The position numbers were made by a program, and so were the translations under genes. Of a DNA stretch of 21,959 nt, positions 4,362 through 18,600 are shown in pieces. The stretch is from positions 1 through 21,959 of IMG/VR virus record IMGVR_UViG_3300004805_000039. One strand, 5' to 3'. The first letter of the stretch is position 1; the number at the start of each line of letters is the position of its first letter. Below the pieces are notes generated by a model, which saw only the letters and a program-made list of their open reading frames with translations, did not search any database and was not told where the DNA came from. The stretch comes from a virus.

Positions 4362-4859
4362 TTAATGCTCCGTTTCGGAAAGCTCGCCGGTTTTCGTCCC
4401 GTAAAGGAAGAATGCACCACTGGGTTTGCCAAACTCCCGCTCGTACATACGCACCTTAGCCTCGGTTCGGTTGTTGGATAATACACCAATTATCAGTGGC
4501 ATTCCAATGGTGTCGGCGACCTGCTTGCTAAACGCGCAGAGACGCCTCGCCCTGCCACCCTTGGCTGACCTGTATTCGGGGTGAATGAAGATGGCCCGCT
4601 CTTCCAAAACGTCACTGTCGGAGTACCACATCGAGCCAGTCCTGAGCAGGACGACACCCTCGATCATACCATCCGGCTTGCCGATGACGCCGCAAATACC
4701 TTGATGCTGGTGGAGGGATGGCCATATCTCGCCCGCCAGTTTGTCGGGGTTTGGGTTAAGGAAACCGTTTTCGGCGCAGGCTTCCAGGGCGAGGGTCATA
4801 ATCTCGGTGAAGTCTTCAGCAGTGGCGATCCGAATGCGGAGGTCGTCAGAGTTGGTCAT
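4362..4859 (-). CDS. GNAT-family N-acetyltransferase
   Basis: This 165-residue protein fits a single GNAT domain, which moves an acetyl group from acetyl-CoA to an amine. The start RIRIATAEDFTEIMTLALEA is a typical strand 1 / helix 1 beginning. EGVVLLR and MWYSDSDVLEERAIFIHPEYR provide the central strands. The stretch IHPEYRSAKGGRARRLCAF matches the acetyl-CoA pyrophosphate-binding motif A, in which Arg/Gln and Gly contact the cofactor. The length is normal for the family. The substrate cannot be inferred. The gene sits inside the virion cluster, 12 bases after the 208-residue gene and abutting the large ejection-protein gene, so it is expressed with late genes. Such enzymes recur in phage structural modules and may modify virion or host proteins, but that is inference. 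Start supported by AGGG upstream of ATG. Confidence 0.82.
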   Translation of the reverse strand: MTNSDDLRIRIATAEDFTEIMTLALEACAENGFLNPNPDKLAGEIWPSLHQHQGICGVIGKPDGMIEGVVLLRTGSMWYSDSDVLEERAIFIHPEYRSAKGGRARRLCAFSKQVADTIGMPLIIGVLSNNRTEAKVRMYEREFGKPSGAFFLYGTKTGELSETEH

Positions 4860-5860: not shown

Positions 5861-6511
5861 TCATGGTGTGTACCGGAAGTAGAACTCGCCGGTATCAAGG
5901 GTGCCGGGGGCCGTGGTGCCCGCCGTCATTTTGCCCGCATTGCCGGTAGTGGCTGATGCCACCCACGCCAGAGTGCCGCCCGTGCCCGCTAGGGCATTGC
6001 GGGCCGCCAGCGGGGTCGTGGAGGCCGTCCCGCCGTGGGCGACAGTTAGGGGGTCTGCGAGGGCTGTGCCCCAGGCTGTCCCCGTTGACACAGCGATACC
6101 GGCGGCTGGGTACACTGTAGACCCCGCCGGACCAGTCGGTCCTGTCGGCCCAGTGACAGAAGACGCCGCGCCCGTGGCCCCTGTCGCCCCAGTCGTTCCT
6201 GTAGGGCCAGACGGCCCCGTGGGTCCAACAGGCCCAGTGGGTCCGGTGGGGCCTCCGGGAGCTCCGATAGGCCCTGTAGGCCCAGTCGGCCCCGCAGGAC
6301 CAGACGGCCCCGTTGGGCCTCCGGGCGTGCCATTGGCTCCGGTTGGCCCTGTGGGCCCAGTGACGGACGACGCAGCACCAGTTGGCCCAGTTACTCCGGT
6401 TGCCCCCGTGGGCCCTGTAGGCCCAGTCGGCCCCGTAGCGCCCAGTGCTCCGCCAGCCGCCGCGAAATTGGCGTCTATGTACGGGTCGCCGATGATGTAC
6501 GGGACAGTCAT
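5861..6511 (-). CDS. Short collagen-like tail fibre or virion surface protein
   Basis: This 216-residue protein starts [16 protein letters not shown]. Residues about 24-130 are an almost unbroken run of Gly-X-Y triplets dominated by GPT, the pattern that forms a collagen-type triple helix. Two copies of [14 protein letters not shown] lie inside it. The C-terminal part has [22 protein letters not shown], a phrase common in phage fibres, and ends EFYFRYTP. Its ATG shares one base with the stop codon of the nozzle gene (TGATG overlap), and GGGAAG lies five bases upstream, so I prefer this start to an upstream extension that would run inside the nozzle gene. It probably forms a thin trimeric spike or fibre next to the nozzle. 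A head-surface fibre is possible. Confidence 0.85.
6122..6442 (-). repeat. Collagen-like Gly-X-Y repeat in short fibre
   Basis: Degenerate 9-bp (GGN CCN ACN) repeats encode residues about 24-130 of the 216-residue fibre. Two [11 protein letters not shown] units are nearly the same as the [11 protein letters not shown] units of the large fibre at 10843-14358. Confidence 0.85.
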
Positions 6512-8592
6512 CAGAACTTCCCATCCTGCTGCAGCCGGTACCTGATATTGCCAATCCGCCAGAAGCTGCCGGTGTCGCTGCTGCCGATCTTGAGGGAGAC
6601 CAGCCGCCCCCTGAAACGGGGTGAGATGAAGGTCGTACTCTGGGTCAGGGGGTATGGGCCAAATGTCGTCGGCGTCTGACCAGCGTAATCCGCGACATTG
6701 AAGGTTAAGTTGACGGTCGCGTTCTGAGCGCCGCCGTAGTAGCCCCACTTCATGTCCGGCCAGACCTGATCGACGAAGGTCTTAACGTCAGCCTCAGACA
6801 TGGCGTAGTAGCCCGTCTGGATGAACGAATCCATTGGCTGGCCGTCCGCGTCGGTGGAGGTCTCGTGCTGGTACAAATACAGGCTCTCGGGGTCCGCCCC
6901 GATGGGGGGGCCAAGGACTGACTGGTCGATCCAGGCCGACCGCGACATGGTCCCGTAGTCCCACTGCTGCAGGAAGACATTATATTTGACGTAGGAGTTC
7001 ACTTCCCCGCCGTCATTCTTCGACGGGTAGAACCATGAAATCTCGCCAAAGCGCGCGTTCACCGCGACCCTGATCCTGTCAGTCCGTGTCGTGTCGAGGT
7101 CTTGGAAGATGACATCCCAAAGGGGGCATGGGATGGGTGACACACCGTCACCTGACAGCAGGAAGAATTGAGACGCCCCCATCCAGTATGTTGAGCCGTT
7201 CAGGGTTGCCGCCGCCTTGCGGGAAATCATACCGCATGAAGCGCCCACCTCGTTGAAGGAGTAGACGAAGGGCGGCCCAATGTACTGCATCGAGTAGACA
7301 TTGACGTCTGTCCAAACGAGCCCCTGCTGGGGCCCCTGGACGCAGCCGACAATCTTTGATCCCTTGGGCACGCGGTAGGAGCCAGCCTGATTGGTGGGGG
7401 TGGCGATCCAACTGTTGTAGTCGTTGACGTCGCACCACCTGATCAGCAGGGGGTCTTGGATGCCGGTAAAGGTGGAGCCCCACGCCACAATTTGGCGCTG
7501 CGGCATGGCCACGAACATGCCATCGTTTAGTGGTGGCCCCGCCGGTATGATGGTGGCTATTGGTTGCCCAGACAGGGCGTCCCACTGATAAATAGGCTGC
7601 AGCAACGTCCCGTTGACGGGATTGCTGATTAGCACTTGGCCCCAGTTGTCGAGGCTCCAATCCGTGGCCGAAATTGGTGTGCCGGTGTTGGGGACGACGG
7701 CAGTGCCAGTACCGTATCCCCCGTCACCGTAGCCGCCCACGCCGTAGCCAGTGCTGGCGGGAATAGCGCCGATGCCGATACTGTAGACGAACCTGACGTT
7801 GCCGCTGTTAATGGAGGCGGTCGTCGAGGACGTCGCCAGGGCCTGAGAGTTAATGGTGAAGTGGTTGGCATCGACAATGGTCTGGATGACGTAGTTGCCA
7901 AACAGCGTGACGCCGCCGACCGTGGTGGACACCAAGATGGGGTACGTGTCGCCCGCCAGGAAGCCGTGAGCCGTCAGGGCCACCGAGACCAAGTTGATGG
8001 CATTGGTCGTGGTGAACGCCGCCACAACGCCGGGGGAAGTGCTGCTCAGGGCGGGCAAGAGATTGCCGAAGATGTCTTGCGCGTTGATGGTGTAGGAGGT
8101 CGCGCCGCTGCCGGTGGTGGGGTACAGGCCAAACAGGATCAGGCCGCCCACGCTGACGTGGGTCTCTATGTAGACCGTATCAAACGAGGTTATGCCGCCG
8201 GTCGTAGCGTCCACCACAGTGATGGTTGGAGACCCCGAGACTGTGGTGAAGTTGGGCGTGACGTTATCGGTAATGCTGCGGGGTGTGATGTCGCTCAGGA
8301 TACCGCTCGTGACGACAGCAAGCTGGGCTTGGCCCGTGACGCCGATGTTCTCCATGCCGACCGCTAGGCGCGCATTGGCGTTGGTGTCCTCCCACGCCCA
8401 AAGGCTGCGGGCCTTGCTGGCGGTGGTGCTGCCGTAAAACTTCGTCCACCCGCCCAGCTTCTGGCTGAGGGCTCCCACGATTGGGTCGAACACAAAGCGG
8501 ACAAGATTACAGGCGGAAATGCCCGCCTCATTAAGGGCGGGCGTGGCTGTAATATCAACGCCAGGGCGGAGCTTGACTGAGGCGTGGGGCAT
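6511..8592 (-). CDS. Tail nozzle/hub-like structural protein (P22 gp10-like group, environmental phage type)
   Basis: A 693-residue protein with the N-terminus [20 protein letters not shown] followed by [13 protein letters not shown] and a GGW motif near residues 47-49. This start is characteristic, as far as I recall, of a widespread phage family placed with packaged-DNA stabilisation or tail nozzle proteins. Residues about 113-172 and 197-250 look like two beta-sandwich inserts of the same type, the second with TAHGFLAGD and DANHFTIN. A Gly/Tyr-rich loop follows (280-297). The remaining C-terminal half is rich in Trp and aromatic residues, as expected for a beta-propeller-like body. It ends [11 protein letters not shown]. 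It probably sits below the adaptor ring and closes the DNA channel. It begins six bases after the adaptor gene and overlaps the short-fibre start by one base. Confidence 0.8.
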
Positions 8593-8598
8593 AAGGCG

Positions 8599-9372
8599 TT
8601 ACCCCCTCGATGGCGTTGCGACGGGAGAAGATGGCATGGACGACCACGCCGACGCCTGGAACTTCTTCCTGTACTCCTCAACTGTCGCGCCCTTGAGCAA
8701 CCCCTGGTACTGGCTCTCGTAGCTCTGGGCCATGGCCGGGTCGTCGCTTTCGCGGCCAAAGTTACGCTGGAAGGCGCTGATGTAGATCATACTGGCCATG
8801 ACCAGAAGGTCCGGCAAGTAGGTGCTGATGAAGGTCGTGCCGGTGTTGGCGGCTGCAGTTGTCGCGGACTTGTAAAGCGTGGGGGCCCGGATAGTTCCCG
8901 TAACGACAACGGTGTAAGTATTGTCGGGCCAGGGGCCGAGGATGAGGTTGTTGTCTACATTCCCGCCAGTCGCCCTGTCTCCGCCGTACATGGCGTAGTA
9001 GGCGGGCACGCCTGCATTGGTGGCGTTGCCGTAGACGTTCTGCAGGTACTCCTTGGTCGTCGGCAGGAGGGGCACGTTGCCGCCGGTGCCGCTATTGAGG
9101 AGGATGGTCTGGATGGTGACGAAGTCGTCCGTAGATATGGTGAACAGGTTGGTGGCGGTCGTCAGGGTGTAGTTCTTACTCGTCATCGTCGGCAGCAAGT
9201 CCAGATCGCGCTGGATGCGAAGCTCTGCGTAATTGAGCATTTGGGGGATGATGGCGTTGAACGCGTCATCCACCCCGACCACAACGCCAGCCGTAGTCGT
9301 TGTATTGACGACAGCCATGGTGGCGATCTGTGAAACGTAGCCATTGTAGGTGAGGGGCGTCGTGTTCGGCAT
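8599..9372 (-). CDS. Phage adaptor (head-to-tail connector) protein, SU10 adaptor-like
   Basis: A 257-residue protein. The N-terminal region has the pattern FNAIIPQMLNYAELRIQRDLDLLP (residues about 39-61), and the C-terminal region has PDLLVMASMIYISAFQRNFG followed by AQSYESQYQGLLKGA and EEYRKKFQ. From memory this combination of an alpha-helical start, central beta domain and long C-terminal helices typifies the adaptor proteins of phage SU10 and related short-tailed phages, which bind under the portal ring and carry tail parts. The neighbouring nozzle gene six bases downstream agrees with that. The ATG at 9372 follows GAGGTAGG at about nine bases. A tail-tubular-protein A (T7 gp11-like) label describes the same role. 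Confidence 0.8.
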   Translation of the reverse strand: MPNTTPLTYNGYVSQIATMAVVNTTTTAGVVVGVDDAFNAIIPQMLNYAELRIQRDLDLLPTMTSKNYTLTTATNLFTISTDDFVTIQTILLNSGTGGNVPLLPTTKEYLQNVYGNATNAGVPAYYAMYGGDRATGGNVDNNLILGPWPDNTYTVVVTGTIRAPTLYKSATTAAANTGTTFISTYLPDLLVMASMIYISAFQRNFGRESDDPAMAQSYESQYQGLLKGATVEEYRKKFQASAWSSMPSSPVATPSRG

Positions 9373-9404: not shown

Positions 9405-10457
9405 CTAGGTTGCCGATAGGAACTCTAGGTTGGCCCGGAGCCGAGCATCTTCAGGTGCGAATGATAAGGCCAAACGAGCCTGTTCCAAAGCAACATCTTT
9501 CAAGCCAAGGCGGAAGGCTGAGATGCTGGCGAGGTCATGTGCCCAGTATTCCCATACCGCCGGGTCGCAGGTGTAGGACCAGTCTCTCTGCGTGATCGAC
9601 AGTGCCCGCATGGAGGCTGTGTAGCAGTCAAGCCACCGGCCCTGGTGGTGGTACATCATGGCCAGTTCGCACCAGGGGTCTCTGGTGCCCATAGCCTCGG
9701 CGCATGCCCTGAGGAGGCTTGCCTCCTGCGCCCAGAGGTTGCCCAGTTCGGCGTGGGCCTTGGCCATGGTGCGGTAGGCGTAGCAACGCTCTGCAGGCCA
9801 CACGGCAGACGGCATGGCGAGATACCGATCACACTGAGCCAGGGACTCCTGCCACTCGCCGTAGAAGGAAAGCTCTCGGGCGTAGTAGAAGGCGTTGCGG
9901 GGGCACAGCGGGTCTTCCTCGACCGACAGCTTCAGCAGTGGCAGGTACTGCCCACGGCTCTTTGTGGAGTCTGGGTGGTGGCTGACGAGGAGCAGGTCTG
10001 TCTCGGCCCACACCTCCGTCACGCCCTCATTCGGCATGGGGTACTCATGCACGGGGTGGTGCCAATGGTAGGCATGCCGGGAGTGGATTTTCTCGGACTT
10101 GAACTTGATGCCGCAACTCCAGTCGAAGAAGTACCGCATGCGTGTCGTTCCGGGGGCCCAGAGGCGCTCCACTTCTTCCCGCCAGCCGGGTTCCATGACC
10201 TCGTCGAGGTCCAGGCTGATGCAGATGTCGATGTCGTCAGGCACGAGCGCCAGGGCCGCATTGCGGGCGGCGTCAAACCGCCAGGGTGAGACTGTGATGG
10301 GTTCGACGACCGCACCCATACCCCTGGCCTTGTAGATCGTGGCGTCTGTGCTGCCCGTGTCGGCGATCAAGATGAGGTCTGCGTCTTTGGCTGAGTTGCA
10401 GAAGCGTTCGACAAATTGCTCTTCGTTTTTGGCGATAGCGTAGATAGCGATTTTCAA
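9405..10457 (-). CDS. Glycosyltransferase, GT2-like (GT-A fold) with C-terminal TPR-like region
   Basis: A 350-residue enzyme that probably transfers a sugar from a nucleotide-sugar donor. The N-terminus MKIAIYAIAKNEEQFVERF, then IADTGSTDAT (about 31-40), FDAARNAAL (61-69) and the metal-binding DxD motif in SLDLDE (Asp83, Asp85) are hallmarks of family 2 transferases. Residues about 190-345 are helical with repeated Ala, Tyr and Leu patterns (for example CYAYRTMAKAHAELG, WCELAMMYHHQGRW, LARLALSFAPEDA-like end) that resemble TPR repeats, often a protein-binding platform. The start codon is TTG at 10457, chosen because the conserved KIAIYAIAKNEE needs it and AAGGAA lies six bases upstream. No membrane segment is seen, so it should act in the cytosol. 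Acceptor unknown: fibre, other virion protein or host glycan. Confidence 0.85.
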   Translation of the reverse strand: MKIAIYAIAKNEEQFVERFCNSAKDADLILIADTGSTDATIYKARGMGAVVEPITVSPWRFDAARNAALALVPDDIDICISLDLDEVMEPGWREEVERLWAPGTTRMRYFFDWSCGIKFKSEKIHSRHAYHWHHPVHEYPMPNEGVTEVWAETDLLLVSHHPDSTKSRGQYLPLLKLSVEEDPLCPRNAFYYARELSFYGEWQESLAQCDRYLAMPSAVWPAERCYAYRTMAKAHAELGNLWAQEASLLRACAEAMGTRDPWCELAMMYHHQGRWLDCYTASMRALSITQRDWSYTCDPAVWEYWAHDLASISAFRLGLKDVALEQARLALSFAPEDARLRANLEFLSAT

Positions 10458-10467
10458 AACGGGTTCC

Positions 10468-10833
10468 TTAAGCGGTGGGGTCTACCTGCGGCATAAGTGC
10501 GCTAACTTGAGCCGTCAAGGCGGCAATTTGGTTTTCCAAGTCGGTAATCTGCGCGGCGGCGGCTTGAGCGGATGCTTTCGCCGCGTCTTGCGTAGTGGAA
10601 AGATCAGCAACGGTTTGCGCGTCCAGTCCGCTAACAATGTCAGACAGAGACAGGCCGTAATCAGCAAGCACCTTCTCCGGTGGCATGGGGCCAACCACCT
10701 TGGTTTCAACCTTGCTTTCTCCCGTAAACGGATCGGTGGAGGGGGCTGATAGCGTCACTTCACAGGCCCAAGCAATGGAGCCGTTGGGCTGCATGACAAA
10801 ATCGGCGCGGGTAATTTTCGTGGTGATGGTCAT
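10468..10833 (-). CDS. Small coiled-coil protein downstream of the fibre gene
   Basis: A 121-residue protein beginning MTITTKITRADFVMQPNGSI. The first half is beta-like, with WACEVTLSAPSTDPFTG and a Lys/Val strand. The second half (about 80-118) is a heptad-type helix, ALAxAxITDLENQIAALTAQVSAL in pattern, likely a coiled coil. It follows the 1171-residue fibre by nine bases, with AAGGAAC as ribosome-binding site next to the fibre stop, and precedes the glycosyltransferase by ten bases. Small genes directly after fibre genes often encode fibre-assembly chaperones or tip-attached proteins, so that is a reasonable guess. The sequence itself does not name a family. Confidence 0.7.
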   Translation of the reverse strand: MTITTKITRADFVMQPNGSIAWACEVTLSAPSTDPFTGESKVETKVVGPMPPEKVLADYGLSLSDIVSGLDAQTVADLSTTQDAAKASAQAAAAQITDLENQIAALTAQVSALMPQVDPTA

Positions 10834-10842
10834 TTTGGTTCC

Positions 10843-15092
<4,250 letters not shown>

Positions 15093-15096
<4 letters not shown>

Positions 15097-15782
15097 GCCG
15101 TGAAGTACCCCGAGATGGTGGGGGAGATGTAGAAGGCCGACGTCTCGATGTTTTGGGTCGCGGCAATTTCATACGCCTCGTCAGCCATGGGCTTCAGCAT
15201 GGCGACCTTGTCGGGAGCCCAGATCATCGCCAGACGCTGCGCCATGCCGTAGGCGGCAGCCTCGAGGAAATAATACGGCAGTTCGATGTTCTGGCCGTCC
15301 TTTAGGTTGGCGTCTTGGATTTGCCGCATGCGGTAGTATTTGAACGCCGTCTCGTTGCCCGTGGGGACCGGCCACAGCGTCACGGTGGGCGACAGCAGGC
15401 GGTCGAACCAGAAGGTCGTGGGGAAGCCCTGTTGAGTGATGTTCGGGTAGCTGGCGTACTCGGTGCGGCTGATGGGCAGGATCAGGCGGTCGGTGGTCAT
15501 GCCGCCGCTGGTCGTAGTGATGTAGGCGTCCAGCATCACGACCGTGTTCGTGGGTACGGCGTAGGTCGCCGTGCCCTGCACCAGGGGGATCGACTGAAGG
15601 TCAACGGTCCACAGGTTGACGCCCTGGCTGCTCCACCGGCCAAGCATCATGTTGGCCGCCATGCGGGCGGACTCCATGTGCTCCTGCAGCAGTTCCGTAT
15701 TGCGGATGCCGCAGAGGTTAAAAGCGTAGAGGGTTATTTCGCCAAGCGATGGATTGTAGTCGTAAGTCCCGCTGAGTGACAT
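15093..15782 (-). CDS. Head-completion/adaptor-like neck protein (P22 gp4-like role)
   Basis: A 229-residue protein. The start has SLGEITLYAFNLCGIR, followed by HMESARMAANMMLGRWSSQG (about 35-54), then beta strands with TATYAVPTNTVVMLDAYI, WPVPTGNETAFKYY (about 137-150), and a C-terminal helical part QNIELPYYFLEAAAYGMAQRL and AYEIAATQNIE. This helix-strand-helix order and the WPVP phrase are typical of phage adaptor proteins that fill the gap between portal and tail. It is the first of two adaptor-like genes in the window; this one is closer to P22 gp4-type neck proteins in my reading. ATG at 15782 is preceded by AAGGAT. It overlaps the zinc-ribbon gene by four bases. Confidence 0.75.
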
Positions 15783-17685: not shown

Positions 17686-18600
17686 TTAAGAAGTCGGGAA
17701 CGATCCGTAGATCGAACGCCAGTTGTAGTAGCCGAAGCTGTAACGCTCGTAGCCCTTGACCAGCAGATTGTCCGTTACGAAGTCGACCTGCATGTCGGAC
17801 TCGAACTTAACGCGCTCCATATAGGAGAGCCCGTCAATGTTCGTCAGGAGGAACCACGCGAAGGCAGAGGTCAGGTAGTCATTGACCATGTAACCCTCAG
17901 GCAGGCCACCGGCGGTGCTGATGATTGCATTGACGTCGTTGTCTGCCGAGCCAGGGCGAAGCTCAGTCTTCGTCAGACGAATAGCGACCGGCTCCAGTTG
18001 CGGAGGCACGACCAACTTACGACCGCGAGCGAACACCTTAAGACCGGCTTGGTCCTTAAAGTTCGTGCGGATCGAGATCATCGCGTTCAGCAGGGTGGAT
18101 TCGTTCAGGTCAACGTCCGTGGTCGGGCGATTGCTGACAGTGCCGCCATCAATCGGGTGGCTGGTGGAGCAAAGCGCCACGCCGTCACCGCCGATGGAGG
18201 AATTGTAAGTCGTCGCCGTGTTCAGCAGGTTCGAACCGTAGATTTCCTTCGTTTGCTGGAAGGACTCGATCAGGCCGAGGTTCGACGGGTGGAACTGCGT
18301 CTTGTACAGGTTGTCGTCGATGGCCTTGCGAGTGATCGCGTAGCCGAGGGCGATTTCGTTGTGCTCTTGGTTGTAGACGTAACGCTCACCAGCATTGTTG
18401 TCGAAAGACGTTTGAGCGCCTTCCGTCTTAAGCTGGGCCAGACCGAGGTAGCGCATTTCGGCGGTACGCTCGAGGGCCAGCTTGGAGTCGTGCTTGGTGA
18501 AGATTTTGTCGTACTGAGACGGGATCATCTCGTACTTGCCTTCAACCCCACGGAGACCGGGGAGCAGAAGGTCTTTAATTGCTGAAAGGTTAACAGCCAT
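17686..18600 (-). CDS. Major capsid protein (HK97-fold, Mu GpT-like group)
   Basis: A 304-residue protein with no signal peptide. It starts MAVNLSAIKDLLLPGLRGVE and contains DNNAGERYVYNQEHNEIALGY (extended-loop-like region, about 67-87), YAITRKAIDDNLY, CSTSHPIDGGTVSN (about 143-156), LLNAMISIRTNFKDQAG and ARGRKLVVPPQLEPVA (about 191-206), and ends YNWRSIYGSFPTS. The phrase PIDGGTxSN with a following helix and VVPPxL is typical of Mu-like and related capsid subunits. About 420 subunits would build a T=7 shell if the virion is of common size, but the T number is not known. The ATG has GAGGAG eight bases upstream, a strong site, as expected for the most abundant virion protein. It lies 16 bases after the decoration-protein candidate and shares its promoter. 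Confidence 0.88.
   Translation of the reverse strand: MAVNLSAIKDLLLPGLRGVEGKYEMIPSQYDKIFTKHDSKLALERTAEMRYLGLAQLKTEGAQTSFDNNAGERYVYNQEHNEIALGYAITRKAIDDNLYKTQFHPSNLGLIESFQQTKEIYGSNLLNTATTYNSSIGGDGVALCSTSHPIDGGTVSNRPTTDVDLNESTLLNAMISIRTNFKDQAGLKVFARGRKLVVPPQLEPVAIRLTKTELRPGSADNDVNAIISTAGGLPEGYMVNDYLTSAFAWFLLTNIDGLSYMERVKFESDMQVDFVTDNLLVKGYERYSFGYYNWRSIYGSFPTS

Follow-up and report, generated by a model that had tools for sequence, protein, structure and literature searches.

The product of the glycosyltransferase gene at 9405–10457 in a phage DNA fragment is most probably a protein O-glycosyltransferase, cytosolic, metal-dependent and of GT-A fold (GT2-type), that modifies threonines of the phage's own collagen-like tail fibre, encoded at 10843–14358. 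The fragment, hereafter the window, is the whole of IMG/VR record IMGVR_UViG_3300004805_000039 (21,959 bases, from a freshwater tailed phage), and every gene discussed in it lies on the minus strand. Our assignment builds on the predicted fold, the intact catalytic motifs, the protein family, a shared strand and gene order, and strict co-inheritance with collagens that carry threonine at the Y position of their Gly-X-Y repeats (Thr-Y collagens). From these observations we infer the reaction itself, its donor, substrate capture by a tetratricopeptide-repeat (TPR) tail and the benefit to the phage. The best reading, by analogy, is a phage version of the SgtA–BclA3 pair of Clostridioides difficile, in which fibre and glycosyltransferase would move together as a co-mobile cassette.

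The enzyme and a collagen fibre enter and leave the tail-fibre slot together

In MW202675, the nearest complete relative, whose major capsid protein is 90% identical to that of the window (17686–18600; phrog_371), the stretch that separates the stabilisation-protein gene from the SU10-type adaptor encodes a tail fibre followed by a tail assembly chaperone, with no collagen and no enzyme. This gene content at the same position marks it as the tail-fibre slot of the phage group. One edge of the slot in the window is the SU10-type tail adaptor (15093–15782; Pfam SU10_adaptor, E = 8e-10); the other is a conserved virion gene downstream (8599–9372) that weakly matches the virion structural family phrog_2941 (E = 2.2e-6). 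The packaged-DNA stabilisation or tail hub-like protein (phrog_3287) is encoded at 6511–8592. The initial annotation had placed the enzyme between a fibre and the tail adaptor; the fibre side of that placement holds, but the downstream neighbour is the phrog_2941-like gene, and the adaptor lies beyond the fibre.

We fetched related loci with the enzyme as query and, separately, with four other genes of the window (those of the stabilisation and capsid proteins, the phrog_2941 gene and the SU10 adaptor), and scored only slots with both edges, detecting the enzyme by profile search and collagen by collagen-like runs. Among slots fetched without an enzyme or fibre query, an unbiased test in which the stabilisation and capsid proteins served as anchors, 9 carried both genes, 36 carried neither and 0 were mixed (Fisher P = 1e-9, relatedness ignored). 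Collagen was likewise present in all 13 of 13 slots fetched with the enzyme. We abandoned a stricter detector, requiring 12 uninterrupted triplets and then a 30-residue window, because it missed interrupted Gly-Pro-Thr (GPT) fibres such as that of L014 and scored one slot falsely as mixed. Because relatedness inflates the Fisher P value, we built a tree of the SU10 adaptor. On the best tree the pair switched between presence and absence at least 8 times, just 2 of these changes being forced by well-supported branches, and the two traits agreed in every row. The window is nested among relatives that have neither enzyme nor collagen. Fibre glycosylation had been proposed in the initial annotation as an inference from gene position, one that a lack of co-occurrence would speak against; the complete co-occurrence at module level supports it.

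The slot table also bears on two other substrates. Glycosylation of another virion component, whether the capsid, the tail tube or regions of the fibre outside its collagen runs, has a model in mycobacteriophages where, as relayed in PMC12619734 from Freeman et al. 2023, phage-encoded glycosyltransferases act on virion proteins, modifying the C-termini of capsid and tail tube rather than collagen fibres. We consider this improbable here, as capsid, adaptor and hub genes are kept in the 36 enzyme-less slots and the collagen gene alone varies with the enzyme. It is equally improbable that, late in infection, the enzyme alters the O-antigen or capsule glycans of the host surface, blocking re-adsorption of progeny or superinfection, with the fibre linkage arising from co-evolution of receptor binding and receptor alteration. 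Glycosyltransferases in pelagiphage host-recognition clusters have been read in this way by their authors (PMC7029224), and PHROG 13126, the family of the window enzyme, and some records bear the names beta-1,4- or lipooligosaccharide glucosyltransferase. However, scored slots holding a non-collagen fibre lack the enzyme, and the window shows no partner gene for a lipid-linked glycan. We discounted lysogenic seroconversion, no partner genes for a host-glycan pathway being visible in the window.

Linkage of enzyme and collagen extends beyond the scored slots. In 60 phage loci, enzyme and collagen genes share a strand without exception (60/60), and the collagen gene lies upstream in 55/60. The enzyme lies upstream of the adaptor, instead of in the slot, in three loci; in L322, the only one of these with enough upstream sequence, a collagen gene adjoins it. 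Runs coding for GPTGPTG occur in 11/11 whole contigs with the enzyme versus 2/11 without. Because the frequency of the enzyme among contigs selected by GPT pattern is unreadable from short contigs, we considered those over 40 kb (n = 19), of which 7 have a strong enzyme match and 3 a weak one.

Enzyme-linked collagens are rich in Y-position threonine and lack charge

The window fibre is 1,171 amino acids long and matches Pfam Collagen (E = 1.2e-13) as well as tail-fibre PHROGs. Its Gly-X-Y runs (residues 52–279) consist chiefly of GPT and Gly-Ala-Thr triplets broken up by AASTVT; Y is threonine in 70% of triplets and charged in 0%. This pattern is general among phage collagens linked to the enzyme (n = 61), with a median of 71% threonine and 0% charged residues at Y, versus 21% and 14% in phage collagens without the enzyme in the locus (n = 71, from a scan blind to Y). 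Mann–Whitney P values are ~2e-15 for Y threonine and ~1e-14 for charged Y, relatedness uncorrected. A scan by GPx pattern yielded two enzyme-positive loci, too few for a composition test by themselves, so enzyme-linked loci from the other anchors were used. For comparison, bacterial collagens overall have 31.6% threonine at Y (review, PMC8968730). Modification of a host glycan would leave the Thr-Y, uncharged nature of the linked fibres unexplained.

A second GPT collagen-like protein of about 216 amino acids, a possible second acceptor, is encoded at 5861–6511 (Pfam Collagen, E = 7.7e-9 for the longer frame 5861–6748), so that collagen-like genes flank the enzyme on both sides. Its start codon (ATG) overlaps the end of the stabilisation-protein gene that precedes it, at the stop codon; the initial annotation was silent on it.

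Fold and motifs point to an active peptide or protein glycosyltransferase

The enzyme frame (350 amino acids, on the minus strand, which the initial annotation left unstated) runs from a TTG start at 10457 to a stop at 9405 and comprises a GT-A domain (residues ~1–170) and a helical TPR tail (~171–349). A Shine–Dalgarno-like AAGGA lies a few bases upstream of the TTG, and the start is supported by homologues in the family alignment that begin at the same residue. The GT-A signs named in the initial annotation are all at their residues: KNEE (10–13), DTGSTD (33–38), FDAARN (61–66) and DLD (83–85), an intact DxD with D83 and D85. In an alignment of 50 viral homologues reaching down to 35% identity, D33, D38, R65, D83, D85, H137, E138, R194 and E195 are invariant. 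The conservation of DTGSxD, DxD and HE suggests selection for catalysis and hence an active enzyme.

Pfam Glycos_transf_2 matches just above its cutoff (E = 1.6e-5; 25.3 bits against 23.3), and PHROG 13126 ('beta-1,4-glycosyltransferase') matches as a profile over essentially the full length (residues 1–348, E = 8.6e-94). AlphaFold2, run on the alignment of 50 relatives, predicted a GT-A domain and, C-terminal to it, a series of helices, with a mean predicted local distance difference test (pLDDT) score of 96 and a predicted template-modelling (pTM) score of 0.89, bearing out the helical C-terminus proposed earlier. Glycos_transf_2 domain, invariant DxD and modelled GT-A fold together place the protein among GT2-type GT-A enzymes. 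The tail is a TPR array, since the family profile matches solved TPR proteins at positions 224–293 and a sister protein matches Pfam TPR_2 (34.8 bits, cutoff 27).

Foldseek returned the peptide glycosyltransferases SunS and ThuS as top PDB matches (E = 3.5e-16, template-modelling (TM) score 0.65), followed by TPR arrays including that of O-GlcNAc (O-linked N-acetylglucosamine) transferase; a family profile search matched GmaR (E = 1.4e-9), ThuS and SunS. The acceptors of SunS, ThuS and GmaR are peptides or proteins, not lipids or DNA, and that the closest folds are peptide glycosyltransferases is a further argument against a host-glycan substrate. SunS and ThuS (7msn, 7msp, 7msk), which are glycocin S-glycosyltransferases, share the GT2 GT-A fold and a peptide acceptor, and ThuS has HE and FYxARE-like stretches that line up with the window enzyme; their acceptor, however, is a small bacteriocin peptide, and identity over the structural alignment is 15–17%. 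The similarity to SunS is one of fold only: the window protein has no NCBIfam match and falls short of the 350-bit cutoff of the SunS family TIGR04195. GmaR of Listeria (22ao, 7x9r) resembles the enzyme in its GT-A domain and in protein O-glycosylation but is a flagellin O-GlcNAc transferase with a second role as antirepressor.

That second, regulatory role of GmaR, the TPR array itself and the succession of tail fibre and tail assembly chaperone in the MW202675 slot could be taken to mean that the enzyme is a fibre-assembly chaperone acting through its TPR tail, with an inactive or secondary transferase domain. The invariance of DxD, DTGSxD and HE makes this very improbable, even more so than the other-substrate explanations above.

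The pairing recurs in distant phages and in bacteria

The gene pair, a search for which across phage genomes had been proposed in the initial annotation, recurs in distant phages and in bacteria. At 44–45% identity, the enzyme lies downstream of two collagen genes in Actinomycetia phage DSL-LC01 and immediately downstream of one collagen gene in a human-gut phage contig. In the DSL-LC01 locus a gene annotated as tryptophan halogenase (L082, 13433–15004) directly precedes the transferase, shortly after the collagen genes. Jumbo phages encode a relative at 25–34% identity among virion genes, with no collagen gene within 10 kb. We therefore searched whole records for ten uninterrupted Gly-X-Y codons, (GXX)10, a pattern that reads identically backwards and so leaves the control column uninformative. 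Collagen runs were found in all jumbo phages tested, which we accordingly rejected as counter-examples. Overall, (GXX)10 runs occur in 7/7 complete phage genomes with the enzyme versus 3/12 without (P = 0.003), the jumbo phages in the former count representing only a few independent lineages. Runs sampled from the three enzyme-negative genomes are rich in lysine, glutamate and aspartate.

Phage collagen genes also have more distantly related GT2 proteins nearby, the majority of them with matches to TPR (L378, 2364–5624; L379, 836–2074; L416, 1702–2967; L419, 2678–4786; L437, 9635–10849; L477, 5623–8475). The L419 gene comes after three consecutive collagen genes, and the L477 protein has extra methyltransferase and GT9 domains. 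These proteins suggest that transferases have been repeatedly recruited to phage collagens.

In one scan of bacterial genomes we found 80 relatives of the enzyme, mostly in Bacillota, at 40–52% identity. A collagen-like open reading frame (ORF) lies within 5 kb of the relative in 51/80 loci. In the 500 bp nearest the enzyme there are 0.654 such ORFs per kb, against 0.006 per kb at 5–10 kb (~100-fold). The more distant interval serves as an internal control, guarding against an explanation by general abundance of collagen-like ORFs. Relatives in Clostridia (~41–46% identity) adjoin GPT collagens. Linkage in Bacillota, which have no O-antigen and where the enzyme gene directly adjoins the collagen gene, is again hard to reconcile with host-glycan alteration. 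In the enzyme tree, one clade unites most of the freshwater phage enzymes with just one bacterial member, and a second unites the Bacillota enzymes with just one phage member. Tandem pairs of the same transferase family occur in bacterial loci L498, L499, L505, L506, L508, L519, L540 and L547.

Neighbouring genes

Between fibre and enzyme lies a 121-amino-acid gene (10468–10833) whose product has a C-terminal coiled coil. The spacing reported in the initial annotation, ten bases from this small gene to the enzyme gene with the 1,171-residue fibre further upstream, is correct. The small gene had zero tblastn matches among the loci compared, which places it outside the conserved pair, and it was dropped as a candidate member of the module. 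Further along, a GNAT-type acetyltransferase (4362–4859; phrog_1249) is kept among the virion genes of many relatives.

Discussion

SgtA of C. difficile is the nearest characterised enzyme, likened here by description and not by sequence. It is a 358-amino-acid GT-A plus TPR protein encoded beside bclA3; in vitro, with Mn2+, it transfers GlcNAc onto threonine of GPT peptides, so placing O-GlcNAc on the collagen threonines of BclA3 (PMC7157674). The window enzyme shares the near-identical length (350 amino acids), the order of GT-A domain and C-terminal TPR repeats, and linkage to an adjacent Thr-Y, GPT collagen-like gene, and in both systems the acceptors, established or predicted, are threonines of Gly-Pro-Thr repeats. 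The systems differ in that BclA3 is located in the spore exosporium and the phage fibre in the virion, and in that sgtA is immediately upstream of its collagen gene whereas the phage enzyme gene follows downstream of the fibre gene, separated from it by a small gene. UDP-GlcNAc (uridine diphosphate GlcNAc) is established as donor for SgtA only.

By this analogy, the enzyme would be made in the same block and from the same strand as the virion genes, and its TPR tail may hold newly made fibre chains much as the TPR domain of FlmG, a GT-B enzyme, binds its acceptor protein (PMC7591256). The GT-A site would then draw on a nucleotide sugar (UDP-GlcNAc, should the enzyme behave like SgtA) to add a single sugar to Y-position threonines in the Gly-X-Y repeats of the 10843–14358 fibre and perhaps also of the 5861–6511 protein, before or during trimerisation. 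The sugars coating the fibre would most likely replace the stabilising role of hydroxyproline or of the charged side chains of other collagens, and the loss of charged Y residues from linked fibres fits a sugar taking over stabilisation. Shielding of the fibre from binding is an equally possible benefit.

Several observations weigh against this interpretation. GPT collagens occur with no detectable enzyme of the family in L279 and in contigs G035 and G036, any of which may be incomplete; not every such fibre, then, requires the enzyme. By locus, the collagen-bearing exceptions to the pairing are L279 (3420–5390) and the contigs of L117 and L267. In jumbo phages, enzyme and collagen genes are tens of kilobases apart, and PaBG collagens are a mixture of lysine, aspartate and threonine; the substrate could therefore differ there. 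The Y-position comparison carries no correction for relatedness. Finally, the recombinant, non-glycosylated prophage collagen EPclA is stable to 42 °C (PMC3368898), indicating that a sugar is not always needed for stability.

There are precedents for each part of the proposed system: spore collagen O-glycosylation, phage virion glycosylation and a virus that modifies its own collagen. The last is Mimivirus (L230, R699; PMC9546862), which modifies its own collagen with its own transferase, as we propose for the window phage, but through eukaryotic-type hydroxylysine chemistry on another acceptor residue; the window shows no hydroxylase gene. The literature searched yielded no case of a phage collagen fibre co-inherited, as a cassette, with an SgtA-like enzyme of its own.

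We lean, by a small margin over its converse, towards a broader proposal: that tailed phages carry a co-mobile glycosylated-collagen-fibre cassette, that this family and the distant GT2–TPR proteins O-glycosylate Y threonines, and that 'Thr-Y, uncharged' is a code, across phages and bacteria, for a triple helix stabilised by sugar in place of hydroxyproline and salt bridges. Fibre glycosylation by the enzyme predicts sugar on the Thr-Y fibres of enzyme-positive phages and none on charged-Y fibres. If right, it would assign a substrate to a phage transferase family now labelled merely 'beta-1,4-glycosyltransferase', collagen tail fibres would be added to the few virion parts of phages known to be glycosylated, and the pairing would hint at how hydroxyproline-free bacterial and viral collagens stay stable.
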